A stretch of 64,000 nucleotides of DNA from contig JAFZQJ010000026.1 of NCBI GenBank assembly GCA_017620395.1, positions 124,001 to 188,000 on the forward strand, in the 5' to 3' direction. Source of the stretch: Clostridia bacterium (GTDB taxonomy: Bacteria > Bacillota > Clostridia > Oscillospirales > RGIG8002). Of this stretch, positions 43,108 through 54,200 are shown one piece after another (the stretch's first letter is position 1; each line of letters opens with the position of its first letter). The notes under the pieces were generated by a model. It made no database searches, was not told the DNA's origin, and was given only the letters and a program-made list of their open reading frames with translations. The translations under genes were made by a program, and so were the position numbers.

Positions 43108-44679
43108 ATGAAAAGACCTGTTGTATGCGTCGTCATGGACGGCGTCGGGTTCAGCAAGACCGGACTCGGCGACGCCGTCGGCAACGCCAACACCCCGACC
43201 CTCGACAAGCTCTTCGCGACCTGCCCGCACACGCGCCTGAAGGCGCACGGTGCCGCCGTCGGACTCCCCGGCGACGACGATATGGGCAACAGCGAAGTCG
43301 GACATAACGCCCTCGGCTGCGGCCAGATCTATTCGCAGGGCGCGAAGCTCGTCAACGAATCCATCGAGAGCGGCAAGCTCTATCAGAGCGCCGTCTGGAA
43401 AAAGATCGTCGCGGGCTGCGTCGAAAGATCGTCGACTCTGCATTTCATCGGTCTGCTTTCCGACGGCAACGTCCACTCCAACGTTTCGCACCTTTTCGCG
43501 ATGCTGAAAAAGGCGAAGAGCGAGGGCGTGAAAAAGGCGAGAGTCCACATCCTGCTCGACGGCAGAGACGTTCCCGCGACCTCGGCGCTTATCTACGTCG
43601 AGCAGCTGGAAAACGTCCTCGCGGAGCTCAACGACGCCGGCTTTGACGGAAAGATCGCCAGCGGCGGCGGCAGAATGAAGGTCACGATGGACAGATACAA
43701 GGCCGACTGGAATATGGTAAAGATCGGCTGGGATACACACGTCAGAGGCGAGGGCAGACAGTTCGCGTCCGCCGCGGAAGCGATCGAGACCTACCGCGCC
43801 GAGAACGAAGGCGTCATCGACCAGGATCTGCCCGCGTTCGTCATCGCCGATAACGGCGAGCCGGTCGGCAGGATAACCGACGGCGACGCGGTCATACTCT
43901 TCAACTTCAGAGGCGACCGCGCGATCGAGATCAGTATGGCGTTCGACGACGAAAACTTCACCGCCTTCGACAGAGGCGCGCGCCCCGACGTCATATACGC
44001 CGGAATGCTGCAGTACGACGGCGACCTCGAGCTGCCGAAGAACTACCTTGTCAACCCGCCGGAGATAAAGGACACGCTCAGCGAGCTGCTCGTCGCTCAC
44101 GGCCTTAATCAATACGCCGTTTCCGAAACGCAGAAGTACGGCCACGTAACGTATTTCTGGAACGGCAACAGAAGCGGCAAGACCAGCGAGGAGCTCGAGA
44201 CCTTCGAGGAGATCCCCTCCGACAAGGTTTCCTTCGACGAGCGCCCGTGGATGAAGTCCGCCGAGGTCACCGACGCGATGATAGCCGCGCTGAAGAGCGG
44301 CAAATACGACTTCCTGCGCTGCAACTATCCCAACGGCGACATGGTCGGACACACCGGCAGCTACGACGCCGCGATAATCGCCGTCGAATCGGTCGATATC
44401 GGCCTCGCGCGTCTGATAAAGGCGGTCGACGAAGCCGGCGCGATCCTGCTCGTTACCGCCGACCACGGCAACGCCGACGAAATGCTCGAGAAGAACAAGA
44501 AGGGCGAGCTTCAGGTGCGCACCGCGCATTCGCTCAACCCCGTCCCGTTCATTATCTACGACACGCAGGCAAAGCATGAGATAATCGACGGCGAATACGG
44601 CCTCGCCAACGTCGCCCCGACAATCGCGAAACTGCTCGGACTCACGCCTCCCGCGAGCTGGCAGCCGAGCATGATATGA
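43108..44679 (+). CDS. gpmI: Phosphoglycerate mutase, cofactor-independent
   Basis: A 523-residue iPGM of the alkaline phosphatase superfamily. Asp11 (VMDGVG) and the phosphorylated Ser62 (DMGNSEVGH) are present, as are the metal ligands in the VTADHGNADEM motif near the end. It interconverts 3- and 2-phosphoglycerate. The ribosome site is weak (AGAAAGTG). An intrinsic terminator follows the stop. Confidence 0.95.
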   Translation: MKRPVVCVVMDGVGFSKTGLGDAVGNANTPTLDKLFATCPHTRLKAHGAAVGLPGDDDMGNSEVGHNALGCGQIYSQGAKLVNESIESGKLYQSAVWKKIVAGCVERSSTLHFIGLLSDGNVHSNVSHLFAMLKKAKSEGVKKARVHILLDGRDVPATSALIYVEQLENVLAELNDAGFDGKIASGGGRMKVTMDRYKADWNMVKIGWDTHVRGEGRQFASAAEAIETYRAENEGVIDQDLPAFVIADNGEPVGRITDGDAVILFNFRGDRAIEISMAFDDENFTAFDRGARPDVIYAGMLQYDGDLELPKNYLVNPPEIKDTLSELLVAHGLNQYAVSETQKYGHVTYFWNGNRSGKTSEELETFEEIPSDKVSFDERPWMKSAEVTDAMIAALKSGKYDFLRCNYPNGDMVGHTGSYDAAIIAVESVDIGLARLIKAVDEAGAILLVTADHGNADEMLEKNKKGELQVRTAHSLNPVPFIIYDTQAKHEIIDGEYGLANVAPTIAKLLGLTPPASWQPSMI

Positions 44680-44700
44680 AAACAGAATAAAAATTATCCG

Positions 44701-44736
44701 AAAACCGCAAGAGTTAGTTTAATTCCTGCGGTTTTT
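44701..44736 (+). terminator. Intrinsic terminator after gpmI
   Basis: A 9-bp stem (44701-44709 with 44727-44735) is followed by T residues (44732-44736). It lies 22 nt after the gpmI stop and just before the next gene's promoter region. Confidence 0.8.
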
Positions 44737-44740
44737 GTGT

Positions 44741-44746
44741 TATAAT
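44741..44746 (+). promoter_or_regulatory. -10 box for the UroD-type gene
   Basis: TATAAT lies 27 nt before the ATG. The -35 position (TTTAAT at 17 bp) is poor and overlaps the terminator loop, so strength is uncertain. Confidence 0.45.
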
Positions 44747-44772: not shown

Positions 44773-45825
44773 ATGTTCGAAGGTTTCGTTCCCGATTATA
44801 CGAATATCGTAGACGCCGCGCGCAACAGATCCGCGAAGCGCCTGCCGCTTTACGAGCACCAGATTGACGACGCGATTATGGAAAAGATCGTCGGCAGGGA
44901 GTTTTCCGGCCTGCAGGACGGCTCTGCCGCGGAAGCGGCTGAATACGTCGGCCGCGTCTGTGAAAGCTACCTGAAATGCGGTTACGACACCGTTACCTTC
45001 GAGCGCTGGCTCAGCGTCGCGTTCCCGGGCAGCGGCGCGCTCGGCGGTCACAAGCCGCCCGTGATAAGAGACCGCGCCGACTTCGAGAAGTACCCCTGGG
45101 ACGAGGTGCCGGATAATTTCTTCAAGCTTTACGGCAAGCTTTTCGACGGCCTGCGCGAAAAGCTCCCCGCCGGAATGAAGGCGATAGGGGGCGTAGGCTG
45201 CGGCGTCTTCGAGTGCGTCGAGGACCTCGTCGGATATCAGGATCTCTGCCTGCTTTCTTATGACGATCCGGAGCTTTACGCCGACCTTTTCAAAAAAGTC
45301 GGCGGCGTCAGCGCCGCGACGTGGGAACGCTTCATCCGCGAATACGGCGACCTCTACTGCGTGCTGCGCTTCGGCGACGATCTCGGCTACAAGTCGAATA
45401 CGCTCCTGCCGCACGATGATATCAGAACGCATATAATCCCGCAGTACAAGCGGATAATCGATATGGCGCACGCGAGCGGAAAGCCGTTCCTGCTGCACTC
45501 CTGCGGCAACATCTTCGGCGTTTTCGACGACCTTATCGCCGCCGGAATAGACGCGAAGCACTCGAACGAGGATCAGATCGCGCCATTCACCGAATGGGTT
45601 GAGCGTTACGGCGACCGCATCGGCAACTTCGGCGGCGCGGACGTCGACGTGCTCTGCCAGTCTTCGGAGTCGGAGATAAGAGAATACGTCACGGATATAT
45701 TGAAAAAGTGCGAGGGGCGCGGGGGCGTCGCCTTCGGCTCCGGCAATTCGATAGCCGGATACGTCCCGGTGGAAAACTATCTCGCTATGGTGCGCACCGT
45801 ACGCGAATACCGCGGCGAAAAGTGA
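44773..45825 (+). CDS. Uroporphyrinogen-decarboxylase-family (MtaA/CmuA-like) methyltransferase
   Basis: A 350-residue TIM-barrel protein of the UroD superfamily. The HSCGN motif (His242, Cys244) is the His-X-Cys zinc pair of corrinoid-dependent methyltransferases such as MtaA/MtbA; Cys295 is a candidate third ligand. True HemE decarboxylases lack this pair, and no haem genes are nearby. I infer methyl transfer between a corrinoid protein and another acceptor or donor. A corrinoid protein is encoded 1.4 kb downstream, beyond the serpin gene. The substrate is unknown. GGGGAGGG precedes the ATG. Confidence 0.82.
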   Translation: MFEGFVPDYTNIVDAARNRSAKRLPLYEHQIDDAIMEKIVGREFSGLQDGSAAEAAEYVGRVCESYLKCGYDTVTFERWLSVAFPGSGALGGHKPPVIRDRADFEKYPWDEVPDNFFKLYGKLFDGLREKLPAGMKAIGGVGCGVFECVEDLVGYQDLCLLSYDDPELYADLFKKVGGVSAATWERFIREYGDLYCVLRFGDDLGYKSNTLLPHDDIRTHIIPQYKRIIDMAHASGKPFLLHSCGNIFGVFDDLIAAGIDAKHSNEDQIAPFTEWVERYGDRIGNFGGADVDVLCQSSESEIREYVTDILKKCEGRGGVAFGSGNSIAGYVPVENYLAMVRTVREYRGEK

Positions 45826-45877
45826 CCGCCGCAGTGTGAAACTTGCGTGTGCGCCTTGTATTCCTCATTTTCTTCTG

Positions 45878-45905
45878 AACGAACGTGACTTACGGTTCGT
45901 TTTTT
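45878..45905 (+). terminator. Weak intrinsic terminator after the UroD-type gene
   Basis: AACGAAC (45878-45884) pairs with GTTCGTT (45895-45901), followed by T residues. The stem is short, so read-through into the serpin gene is possible; I see no good promoter between this hairpin and the serpin start. Confidence 0.55.
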
Positions 45906-45958
45906 ACGGGTATATAAGTGAAGAGTGTTCAACAGTCGTGATAACAGGAGGCGCGATT

Positions 45959-47161
45959 ATGAAAAGGATCATTGCGTTGACGCTGGCGCTCGTTATCGGA
46001 GCGGCGATATTCGCGGGCTGCGGAAACCAGCCGGCGGAGCCGGATCCGGCAGCCGCGGGCTACGTCGAAAAACCGGTCGGCAAGGTCAACGGCGCCGCGC
46101 TTTACAACCTCGACGAAAAGCTGCTCGACTATATCGCCGAGCGGCAGAGCGGAAACTTCGTCATATCTCCGATGTCATTCAAATACGCCTACGGGCTTAT
46201 GCTCGCCGGCGCGGAAGGGAACACGAAAAAAGAGCTCCTTGGCGCATTCGCGCTGGAGAACGAGCATTATATCAATAAAGCGCTCTCGTCGTTCAATGAG
46301 TACGCGGATGAAAGCGCGGGCAATACCGATCTGAAAATCGCAAACTCCGTGTGGACGCGCGAGGACATAGGCTCGGTAAAACAGAGCTATAAAGAGAAAA
46401 TCAAAGAGTATAACGCGGAATACTTTGACTTTTCCGGAAACGTCGCCGAAAAAGCCGACGAATGGGTGAAGGGAAAAACCAACGGTATGATCCCGCGTCT
46501 TTTCCCCGAGGGTCACGATACATCCGACCTCGTTATGCTGCAGCTGAACGCCTTATATTTCAAGGGTGCCTGGGATTCGGAGTTCAAACCCGAAGACAAT
46601 CAACGTTCTGATTTTACGAAGGAAGACGGTTCTTTCGTCGAAAAGGACTTTATGTTCCAATCGGAAGCGATGCCGTATTACGAGGATGAGGATACCAAAC
46701 TTGTGATCTTGCCTATCAGAGACTTTTATAGCGAGACGGGCGTCGTTTTCGTTCTCGGAAGCACCGACGATCTGATCGAAAAAATCGGAAAGGCTTATAA
46801 CAGCAGGCCGATAGTCAATCTGGCGATACCGAAGTTCGAGGTCGAAACGTCTTTGGAGAACGGCGAGTTCTGCGATTTCCTGAAAGCGTGCGGCGTTGCC
46901 GACGCGTTCGATGCTTCGGACGCGGACTTTTCCGGAATTACCGATATGCCGCTTTATGTCAGCGAGATCATCCAGAGAGCGAAGCTCGGAATCAACGAAA
47001 AAGGAATAGAAGGCGCGGCCGCGACGGAAATAGGTTACTCTTTAGGTTTCATGCCGACGGAATCGGTGGATTTCAAAGCCGACCGCCCGTTTTCCTTCTT
47101 CGTCGTCGCCGATCTTCAGACGTCGCGCCACGTTATTTTCGAGGGGCGCATCGTCGAGTAA
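45959..47161 (+). CDS. Serpin-family lipoprotein
   Basis: A 400-residue serpin behind a lipoprotein signal (IGAAIFAGC, Cys21). Conserved serpin segments are visible: NFVISPMSFKYAYGLML (66-82), NALYFKGAWDSEF (197-209), hinge GINEKGIEGAAAT (344-356) and DFKADRPFSFFVVAD (371-385). The hinge with its small residues suggests an inhibitory serpin, although P14 is Ile rather than Thr or Ser. The reactive loop (about 357-370) offers Leu362, Phe364 or Met365 as scissile candidates, hinting at chymotrypsin- or elastase-like targets; this is inference. It should sit on the outer face of the membrane. AGGAGG precedes the ATG. The gene looks more AT-rich than its neighbours, which fits horizontal gain. 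Confidence 0.92.
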   Translation: MKRIIALTLALVIGAAIFAGCGNQPAEPDPAAAGYVEKPVGKVNGAALYNLDEKLLDYIAERQSGNFVISPMSFKYAYGLMLAGAEGNTKKELLGAFALENEHYINKALSSFNEYADESAGNTDLKIANSVWTREDIGSVKQSYKEKIKEYNAEYFDFSGNVAEKADEWVKGKTNGMIPRLFPEGHDTSDLVMLQLNALYFKGAWDSEFKPEDNQRSDFTKEDGSFVEKDFMFQSEAMPYYEDEDTKLVILPIRDFYSETGVVFVLGSTDDLIEKIGKAYNSRPIVNLAIPKFEVETSLENGEFCDFLKACGVADAFDASDADFSGITDMPLYVSEIIQRAKLGINEKGIEGAAATEIGYSLGFMPTESVDFKADRPFSFFVVADLQTSRHVIFEGRIVE

Positions 47162-47189
47162 AATCCGCAAAATATTTCGCCGATTTATC

Positions 47190-47218
47190 TTGCAACGTCA
47201 AAATCGTTATGGTATAAT
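47190..47218 (+). promoter_or_regulatory. Sigma-A promoter of the corrinoid protein gene
   Basis: TTGCAA (47190-47195), a 17-bp spacer and TATAAT (47213-47218) lie 37 nt before the ATG. Confidence 0.8.
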
Positions 47219-47254
47219 TACGCTATCAAACAACCTACCCGAGGGGGCGGCAGT

Positions 47255-47887
47255 ATGTCTATTCTCAATGAAATAAGCGAATACATCCAGCGCGGCAGAG
47301 CGCCGGAGGTCGAGGCCTCCGTCACAAAGGCGCTTGAAGACGGCATTCCCGCGCAGCAGATACTTTCAGAAGGACTGCTCGACGGAATGAACGTCATCGG
47401 CGAGAAGTTCAAGAATAACGAAGTCTTCGTGCCGGAGGTGCTTATCGCCGCCCGCGCGATGAATAAAGGCACCGCGCTGCTCAAGCCCTACCTCGCCGCG
47501 GAAGGCGTCAAGGAGAAGGGCGTCGCCGTCATCGGTACCGTAAAGGGCGACCTGCACGACATAGGCAAAAACCTCGTCAAGATGATGATGGAGGGGCGCG
47601 GCATAAAGGTCATCGACGTCGGCGTAGACGTCCCCGCGCAGAAATTCATCGACGTCGCCGAAGAAAACGACGCGCAGATCATCTGCTGCTCCGCGCTGCT
47701 GACGACGACGATGAACGAGATGAAAAACGTCGTCGACGCAGTCAACGCCTCCGGGCTCAAGGGCAAGGTCAAGGTCATGGTCGGCGGCGCGCCTGTCAGC
47801 CAGGCGTTCGCCGACAGCATCGGCGCGGATTGCTATACCTCCGACGCCGCCTCCGCAGCCGAAGCTGCGGTGGGCTTCCTTGAATAG
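47255..47887 (+). CDS. Corrinoid (B12-binding) protein, MtbC1/MtaC-like
   Basis: A 210-residue methyltransferase cognate corrinoid protein. A helical cap (about 1-85) includes EGLLDGMNVIGEKFKNNEVFVPEVL. The Rossmann B12 domain has the base-off DLHDIG motif with His101 as the cobalt ligand, and VMVGGAPVSQAFA follows. Such proteins carry a methyl group between a substrate-specific methyltransferase and a UroD-type enzyme. The UroD-type gene at 44773 is the natural partner, but a substrate-side methyltransferase and a corrinoid reactivase are not in the window. It has its own promoter and terminator. GAGGGGGCGG lies before the ATG. Confidence 0.92.
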   Translation: MSILNEISEYIQRGRAPEVEASVTKALEDGIPAQQILSEGLLDGMNVIGEKFKNNEVFVPEVLIAARAMNKGTALLKPYLAAEGVKEKGVAVIGTVKGDLHDIGKNLVKMMMEGRGIKVIDVGVDVPAQKFIDVAEENDAQIICCSALLTTTMNEMKNVVDAVNASGLKGKVKVMVGGAPVSQAFADSIGADCYTSDAASAAEAAVGFLE

Positions 47888-47910
47888 CAGTTTCGGAAAT
47901 AATCGTTAAA

Positions 47911-47940
47911 ACAAACCGCACGACCTGCGGTTTGTTTTTG
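47911..47940 (+). terminator. Intrinsic terminator after the corrinoid protein gene
   Basis: A perfect 10-bp stem (47911-47920 with 47926-47935) with a 5-nt loop is followed by TTTT. Confidence 0.9.
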
Positions 47941-51240: not shown

Positions 51241-54200
51241 GGAAATAATCGGCTCATCAACTCCCTGGACCGACGGGCAGAAGCTCGCGATAGGGCTCAC
51301 GGGCGGCAGCGTGCTCGTTTCCGCCTCCGCGGGAAGCGGCAAGACCGCCGTCCTCACGGAACGCATCATGCAGTGCGTGATCGACGCGGACGATCCCGCC
51401 GACGTGCGCGACTTCGTCGTCGTCACCTTCACGAAGGCGGCGGCCGCGGAGATGAAGGCGCGCCTCGGCAAGAAGCTCAGCGACTACGCGCGCGAGCATC
51501 CGGAGAACAAGCGCGTCAAAAACCAGCTTATGTATATTCCCGAGGCGCATATCTCGACGATAGACGCCTACTGCCTCTCGCTGCTTGAGAAGTATCAGGC
51601 CGCCGAGGGCGCGGACTATTCCGCGGGCGTGCGTATTTCCGCGGAGGGCGAGGCCGATCTGCTTTTCAAAAAAGCGCTCGCCGACGCAATCGAAGAAGAG
51701 TTTGACAAAGGCGACGCGGAGTTCTACGCGCTCGTCGACGCCATGGAAGACAGCGGCGGCGGCGCGTCCGATCTGAAAAGCGCAGTCTGCCGTCTGCACG
51801 AGCTTATGACCAGAACCCCCGACCGCGAGGAGTTCAAGGCGCGCGTTCTTGAAGTCTTCGGCGAAGGGTACGGCACGGGCAACGCGGAGTTGTTTGCCGA
51901 CGTGTTCCGCAACGTAGCGAACGCGGCGGAGTATTACGAAAAAGAACTCCGCGGCGTCATCGCCGAAGCTCCGGCATTTTCGGGCGATTCGAAACTTGAT
52001 GATAACCTGAAAGGGCAGATAGCCTACCTTGAGGCGTGCGCCGACCGCTTCGCGTCGTTGAAGTCCGCGGCAGCGGGAAAGGACTACGCGTCCGTCGTCG
52101 CGCTGCTCGGAACGCCGCCCGGCGAGCTTTCGAACAAACCGAGGAAATGTCCCGCCTGGGACGGGTGGATGGACGCGCGAAAGGCCGTTGCCGATAAATG
52201 CAGGGGTTATTTCAAAGCCGCCGCGTCCGACTTTTCCGCGACCGAAGATGAAATGCGCGCCGAAGCCGACGCGCTGAGCGTTATCGTCCGCCGCCTGTTC
52301 GCTTTGCAGGAGCTGACGGAAAAGAAATACGCCGAACTGAAAAAAGACCGCGGCGTCTGGGACTACGCCGACCTCGAAACGAAGGCGCTGAACCTGCTGT
52401 GGAAGCGCGATGCGGACGGAACGCTGCGCCGCACCGGCGTTTCGCTCGAAGAGGGCAGGGCGCACCGCGAGATACTCATTGACGAGTATCAGGACGTCAA
52501 CGGGCTGCAGGAGCTCATCTTCCGCGGCATTTGCTCCGAGTCGGAGGATAATCTGTTTATGGTCGGCGACGTCAAGCAGGCGATATACGGTTTCCGCGGC
52601 GCGACGCCAGAGCTCTTCCTGCGGCACCGCAACGAATACGCGCCCGCCGTCGGAGAAGACTGCGAGTTCCCGGCGAAGATAAGCCTGAATAACAACTTCC
52701 GAAGCAGACGCGCCGTTACCGACGCGGCGAACGCGGTTTTCGCCGCGATCATGACGGGGGAGACCTGCGGGATAAACTACGGCGCGGAGGACGTCCTCCG
52801 TCCGAACCCCGATGCGGAGAGGGAAAACGCCGGCAGCGGAGCGTATTTCACGCTCCTTCAGGGCGATAACGTCGAGGCGGGCAGACTTGCCGAGGGACGC
52901 TATATCGCCGCGAAGATCAAGGAACTGATCGCCGGCGGCATGACCGTCGCCGACAAGCGCGACGGAACCGAGCGCAAGATCGGCTACGGCGACTTCGCGG
53001 TGCTTATGCGCGGCACTACTCAGCCTCATCTGCGTCCGATAACGGACGCGTTCACCGAGGCGGGCGTACCGTTTTCCGCGCCCGGCACCGATTCATGCTT
53101 CGACGTACCGTCGGTGCGGAGGATGATCTCGCTGCTGCGCGCGATAGATAACCCGATGAAGAATATCGATCTCGCCGCGGCGATGACGAGCGGCGTCTTC
53201 GGCTTCACCGACAGCGAACTCGTCGGGGTCCGCCGCCGCGGGCGGGGAGTGTTCTACTACGCGGTCAAAGCCGCCGCGGAGGCGGGGGACGCGAAGTGCG
53301 CCGGCTTCCTCGCGGCGCTCGAGCATTTGCGCTGTAAGTCCGCCGCGCTGACGGCCGATAAGCTTATATGGTATATTTACAAGACGTCCGGCTTCCTCGC
53401 CTTCGCGTCTTCGCTGAAGAGCGGCAGGCGCGAACGCGCCGCCCTTATGCGCTTTTACGAGATCGCCAAGGCTTACGGCGCTTCCGGCAGGCAGGATCTT
53501 TCCGGCTTCATCGGCTACGTCGACAAGGTCATATCGGAGGGCGTGAAAACCGGCGGCAACGGAACGTCCGGCGTCGGCGGCGAGGTCAGGATAATGAGCA
53601 TCCACGCGTCGAAGGGGCTTGAGTTCCCGGTCTGCTTCATCTGCGACGCCGCTTCGAAGTTTAACGAAGACGATTTGAGCAAGAGCTGCATCATAGCCGG
53701 CGGCTCCTCGTTCGGCATAAAGATCGCCGCGCCGGGAGAGCACACCGTGCGCAACACCGCCGCGAGAAAGCTCGCCGCGGCGAAACTGAAAAAGAAGGGG
53801 CGCGAGGAGGAAATGCGCCTCCTCTACGTCGCGATGACGCGCGCGATAGAACGCATAGAGATCGTCGCCTCCGTTGCCGATACCGCCGTGACCGTCAGCG
53901 GGAGCAGACTCAGACTCAACGCCGCGGGAGAGATGGATCCGTATGAAGTCACGCAGGCGAACAGTTACCTTAAACTCGTCGCGCCGATCGCGCTTGCGGA
54001 AACGGGCGCCTTCGACGTATCGATAGATCCGGAGTTCGAGGTCTCCGCCGCCGGAGAGGAGGGCGCCGCGCCCGAGCCGGACGAAGAGCTCGCGCGGAAG
54101 ATATACGCGCGCATAAACGCCGAATACGGCTTTGCCGCGTCCGCGTCGGTGCCCACGAAGCTGACCGTCAGCGACATCGTCGCGATGAAGGCGGGCAAGA

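Follow-up and report, generated by a model that had tools for sequence, protein, structure and literature searches.

A mosaic serpin lipoprotein gene between genes for a UroD-type methyltransferase and a probable shared corrinoid carrier in a genus of Clostridia

Four-part MTI-CP-MTII-activase systems have been described for acetogens (PMC13222342), and in marine bacteria methionine synthesis and substrate demethylation share a single corrinoid protein (PMC12478193). For UroD-fold methyltransferases, a rule based on the zinc site has been used to judge whether a protein belongs to the subgroup acting on thiols or selenols (PMC10418091), while for serpins a hinge consensus of the inhibitory type is quoted in PMC8233489. 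Here, we describe a locus from a member of the Clostridia (the window, a stretch of 64,000 nucleotides) in which a serpin gene lies between genes for a UroD-fold protein and a corrinoid protein. The genes pgk, tpiA and gpmI are located upstream, and addB and addA downstream. Pfam searches confirmed the gene order proposed by an earlier sequence-only reading, with all three genes in place on one strand (Table 1), and the motifs it had named were all present, i.e. HSCGN in the UroD gene (at 45496), the lipobox IFAGC in the serpin and DLHDIG in the corrinoid gene (at 47549). The serpin start is best read as the ATG at 45959, which is preceded by AGGAGG, and not as the GTG at 45836. As a side observation, two types of gpmI occurred among the compared loci (L243-L262): type 1 is about 60-77% identical to the gpmI of the window (43108-44679) and unlinked to tpiA/pgk, type 2 is about 40% identical and found inside pgk-tpiA-gpmI clusters; in the window, a gpmI of type 1 occupies the place of type 2.

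Table 1 Features of the locus (positions in the window)
Feature	Position	Strand	Basis
Intrinsic terminator of gpmI (hairpin followed by a T run)	44699..44737	+	fold -19.3 kcal/mol, z -7.6
TATAAT (-10) upstream of UroD	44741..44746	+	seen in 4/4 aligned genus intergenic regions
UroD-superfamily methyltransferase, probable MTI	44773..45825	+	Pfam URO-D 1.5e-21; MtaA fold match; residue conservation
Weak terminator-like hairpin after UroD	45877..45905	+	-8.2 kcal/mol, z -0.85
Serpin lipoprotein of 400 aa with a hinge of the inhibitory type (EKGIEGAAAT)	45959..47161	+	Pfam Serpin 7e-67; conserpin best PDB match
Replaced serpin core (mosaic tract), reactive loop included	46216..47071	+	36% difference from G002, against about 6% outside the tract
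Predicted hinge and reactive centre loop	46997..47071	+	alignment to conserpin and three orthologues
Promoter of corrinoid gene, TTGCAA-17-TATAAT, TG before TATAAT	47190..47218	+	promoter scan; genus alignment
Corrinoid protein, MtgC/MtbC-like	47255..47887	+	Pfam B12-binding_2 + B12-binding, NCBIfam
Intrinsic terminator of corrinoid gene	47907..47939	+	-16.7 kcal/mol, z -4.2; kept in genus

PDB sequence searches with the UroD protein returned nothing useful and a fold search was needed, in which the model (pLDDT 78) had its best Foldseek match in MtaA of M. mazei (4AY8/4AY7). The fold does not separate MtaA from UroD (VIA Z of 23.7 and 24.4, respectively). H242 and C244 of the H242-x-C244 motif were invariant in 78 homologous sequences, and the position of the third ligand of MtaA, a cysteine, is taken by Ser323 in the window (equivalence by alignment) and by Ser or Thr in 77/78 sequences; the His-Cys-Cys zinc site of S-methyltransferases is absent. 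Following the rule in PMC10418091, this substitution argues against the thiol/selenol subgroup only, and we infer an O- or other non-thiol compound as donor. The protein is a probable substrate-side corrinoid methyltransferase (MTI). The corrinoid protein consists of a helical cap and a B12 domain with the DxHxxG motif (PF02607 and PF02310), and the MtgC, MtbC and TIGR02370 models matched below their cut-offs, so that no substrate-specific name is earned.

Whole-genome searches identified the corrinoid protein of the window as the only B12-binding_2 protein and found no MttB, MetE or MetH. The sequence-only reading had reported neither a reactivase nor a substrate-side partner, which is correct for the window; across the genome, the absence stood for MttB, but a single RACo reactivase, a THF-side methyltransferase and three proteins of the homocysteine methyltransferase (HMT) type are encoded on other contigs. 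One HMT is fused to MTHFR as a bifunctional protein, in addition to two further HMTs, and the end of the fusion gene is overlapped by the only gene of the genome for a pterin-binding methyltransferase, whose best match is the methyl-THF:corrinoid/iron-sulfur protein methyltransferase model (below cut-off). Its interpretation as a MetH remnant was not favoured (223 bits for the AcsE/MtgA-type model, 89 bits for MetH). As the only Pterin_bind protein is this corrinoid methyltransferase, folP (dihydropteroate synthase) seems to be absent, and the organism hosting the genome is probably a folate auxotroph. The sole RACo gene (L103:7155-9787; contig C32 of the window genome, G000) lies beside a CE2/GDSL carbohydrate esterase gene, an unusual setting for the gene of a corrinoid reactivase, and the same arrangement was seen in G002 (L118).

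Within the limits of their draft genomes, the congeners carry the same methyl-transfer set, and in this genus the partner genes lie apart from the corrinoid gene. By gene content, the set corresponds to a split methionine synthase with separate homocysteine, pterin and corrinoid modules and with no MetH or MetE. The corrinoid protein probably serves as a common hub of this dispersed system of methyl transfer, to which the UroD protein could possibly contribute a donor arm for a non-thiol substrate. An alternative explanation is that the corrinoid protein serves the UroD system only, in a catabolic O-demethylation with the THF methyltransferase as MTII and with methionine being taken up, and all MTI-CP-MTII-activase parts are indeed present, as in UroD-type O-demethylases and Cdm (PMC13222342). 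However, all three HMT-type proteins are conserved in the genus, including the MTHFR fusion with its overlap with the THF methyltransferase gene, and in the outgroup G054 the neighbours of the corrinoid gene (71%) are RACo and a homologue (69%) of HMT2 of the window genome, and we consider a corrinoid protein dedicated to UroD rather unlikely.

The three genes look like neighbours that are transcribed separately and do not form one operon. The gpmI terminator was kept in 4/4 genomes of the genus, its stem being rebuilt in G003, and the conserved TATAAT ahead of UroD was not picked up by the strict promoter scan. The hairpin after UroD, a candidate for a firm terminator, was rejected as it performed no better than shuffled sequences and was not conserved (found only in degraded form in G002 and missing from G001 and G003); since the UroD-serpin gap is also only about 72 bp in G001 and G003, read-through into the serpin is possible in these two genomes. 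Between the serpin and the corrinoid gene no terminator was seen. The earlier suggestion that the corrinoid gene has its own promoter and can be transcribed independently was borne out, as the promoter (TTGCAA-17-TATAAT; TTGnnn-17-TATAAT in the genus alignment) is conserved in 4/4 genomes even though the rest of the spacer has diverged. A shared condition of use for all three genes, which had also been suggested, found no such backing: they appear to be separate units, and outside the genus no serpin recurs with a UroD or corrinoid gene.

The sequence-only reading had further assumed that UroD-type and corrinoid genes usually occur side by side. Among 80 loci with UroD homologues (54-91% identity; 2 from this genus and 78 from outside), a corrinoid gene was found within about 7 kb at nine, two of which belong to this genus; at the seven loci outside (7/78), the related corrinoid gene was directly adjacent in some cases and accompanied by RACo and DUF2284 in others. 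A link between the two genes is plausible yet loose, and the pairing is not obligatory, as a corrinoid gene within 7 kb is missing from 71/80 loci. A single clade of corrinoid-adjacent UroDs was rejected since the adjacency is scattered over the UroD tree. The cluster UroD-DUF2284-RACo-corrinoid is complete in three outgroups (G050, G081, G121), and in genus g39 (L109:11060-18034, L043, L108) the order is UroD-DUF2284-RACo-corrinoid-UroD2-like-UroD-UroD3-like, the DUF2284 protein being cysteine-rich and predicted to bind metal. Outside the genus (L206, L156 and others), UroD homologues are often located beside AraC regulators (27/80), sugar ABC permeases and a GH38 mannosidase, which hints at methylated sugars or similar compounds as substrates.

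These neighbours, the 71 loci without a nearby corrinoid gene and the apparently separate transcription of UroD, serpin and corrinoid gene would also fit a UroD protein that is no partner of the corrinoid protein and acts in the catabolism of sugars or other compounds, its closeness to the corrinoid gene being incidental. We regard incidental closeness as rather unlikely, given that the seven cases outside the genus come from scattered parts of the tree and exceed the random expectation (by our own estimate about 0.6% per locus, for a genome of about 2.5 Mb), that the fold agrees with that of a corrinoid methyltransferase and that the His-x-Cys site is invariant.

A recent insertion of the serpin between the two methyl-transfer genes, as the sequence-only reading had considered, is refuted at the genus level. 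The order gpmI-UroD-serpin-corrinoid-addB is identical in all four genomes of the genus, one for each of its known species (G000 and G001-G003, all of them MAGs; two of the congeners are Clostridia MAGs from goat and water-buffalo rumen), and none of these close relatives has an empty site. Likewise, an adjacent UroD-corrinoid pair lacking the serpin was not found at the gpmI-addB locus, neither in the genus nor in 20 outgroups, whose gpmI neighbourhoods (about 16 kb covered in seven of them, about 1.5 kb to either side in the other 13) contained no UroD, serpin, corrinoid or addB gene, and gpmI was therefore rejected as an anchor for an ancestral empty site. As the pair is missing from this locus in the outgroups, they provide no state by which an older insertion could be polarised. 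That the serpin nonetheless split a formerly adjacent pair is unlikely; such an event would fit the adjacency of UroD and corrinoid genes in some other genomes (L211; nearby in L145) and the location of serpins at other loci outside the genus, but outgroups with both genes usually have them at other loci, with DUF2284, RACo or other UroDs in between or alongside, and with the pair missing from the gpmI-addB locus of the outgroups it may equally have assembled around the serpin. Inspection of the gaps by eye revealed no insertion footprint (direct repeats, mobile genes).

The serpin covers the Pfam profile from 13 to 368 of 370 and thus has a full-length serpin fold, and conserpin and other solved serpins align across the full serpin domain. 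A hinge of small residues lies near P15-P9 and contains EGAAAT in all four orthologues, with an Ile at P14 of the window serpin where the consensus has Thr. From the fold and the hinge, the serpin is predicted to be of the inhibitory type; its reactive loop has a one-residue insertion relative to the congeners, and the P1 position has been assigned putatively.

Identity between the serpin and its genus orthologues is only 58-62%, compared to 85-95% for UroD and 93-99% for the corrinoid protein. This divergence is concentrated in a tract of about 70% of the gene: relative to the sister species G002, the window shows no difference at 46031-46215, about 36% across the tract and near identity thereafter, with dS values of 0.07, 1.67 and 0.11 for the three parts in order, and the gene ends are alike between the sister species. 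A segment test gave an LLR of 335 compared to at most 10.4 in 200 permutations, which treat sites as independent and overstate its significance, although the edges are plain by eye. To judge from these patterns, the divergent block is a segmental replacement by recombination, with the hinge and reactive loop falling inside it. The serpin 3' ends of G000 and the more distant G001 are also near-identical (dS 0.05 over 27 codons), which points to more than one exchange. Low GC content as a mark of a foreign core was rejected, as the core has about 50% GC in all four orthologues, and a foreign donor is not indicated. A serpin scan of genome contigs found no relative, the best outgroup core was 45% identical (G044), and a literature search on recombination in bacterial serpins yielded nothing relevant among the papers searched. 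A second tract, in addA (about 51800-54200 of the window), has diverged 10-45% from G002, with a sharp start and flanks that are 95-99% identical, so that the serpin is not the only part of this region affected by recombination. An assembly chimera, conceivable as all genus genomes are MAGs and a chimeric assembly could mimic a mosaic, or ordinary fast evolution of one stretch, conceivable as the core is the fastest part of the serpin in all other genome pairs too, is very unlikely, since a chimera would need two in-frame joins to leave the frame intact across both edges and both ends serpin-continuous, and selection on amino acids does not make dS rise abruptly, as it does here across a sharp edge (0.07 to 1.67).

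Allelic variation is known for bacterial surface antigens, and a re-targeted serpin would be its inhibitor counterpart. We tentatively suggest, as a possibility, that this surface serpin has been re-targeted by cassette-like recombination, the conserved ends serving as crossover points at which different inhibitory cores, each bringing a new reactive loop, would be traded among gut Clostridia. A swap of the core and reactive loop as one block, by homologous recombination between the conserved gene ends, would alter the protease target and keep export and expression, both target and selective reason being presumptive. Should more strains show the mosaic, bacterial serpins would count among the surface proteins that exchange their target-facing part by recombination, and this would help to trace the proteases of host, diet or microbes that these serpins encounter.

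Taken together, we hold with moderate confidence that the locus combines a shared corrinoid carrier, a UroD protein acting as MTI and a separate, genus-ancestral serpin with a recombined core. The corrinoid protein would be the cell's single methyl carrier of its type, reactivated by the RACo from another contig and tied to folate by the methyl-THF:corrinoid methyltransferase, and the homocysteine methyltransferases would take the methyl group from it to form methionine, as in a split methionine synthase. The UroD-fold MTI would transfer methyl groups to this carrier from a methylated compound that is probably not a thiol. The serpin would be a protease inhibitor anchored to the membrane, and no link between it and methyl transfer was seen. 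If these presumed reactions are correct, the split methionine synthase extends from marine proteobacteria to gut anaerobes, and one corrinoid protein is the shared carrier for methionine and a further methylated substrate.

Similar to the split methionine synthase with an MtgC core of marine roseobacters (PMC12478193, PMC12366255), the genome encodes separate corrinoid, pterin-binding and HMT proteins and no MetH, and one corrinoid protein may serve two pathways; unlike in the roseobacter core, the donor arm would be UroD-type instead of MttB-type, the reactivase is a RACo, the organisms are anaerobic Clostridia and the parts lie on different contigs. The OdmB/VdmB/MtvB and CdmBCA systems (PMC13222342) likewise have a UroD-fold MTI, a small corrinoid protein, a methyl-THF:corrinoid methyltransferase and RACo in the genome, but the parts are not clustered here, and the likeness is one of gene content. 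Type 1 mlp clusters (PMC10418091) contain UroD-fold proteins, a corrinoid protein and a Ram/RACE activase and are resembled by the clusters of G050, G081 and G121, whereas the window has a single UroD that lacks the His-Cys-Cys site, with RACo on another contig. With siropins and other gut bacterial serpins (PMC5127057), the window serpin shares the inhibitory-type hinge and the origin from gut Clostridia, and it differs by its lipobox anchor, its mosaic core and the one-residue insertion in its loop. Each of the gene families is already known, but the mosaic structure of the serpin and a single corrinoid protein with a probable shared role are unusual.
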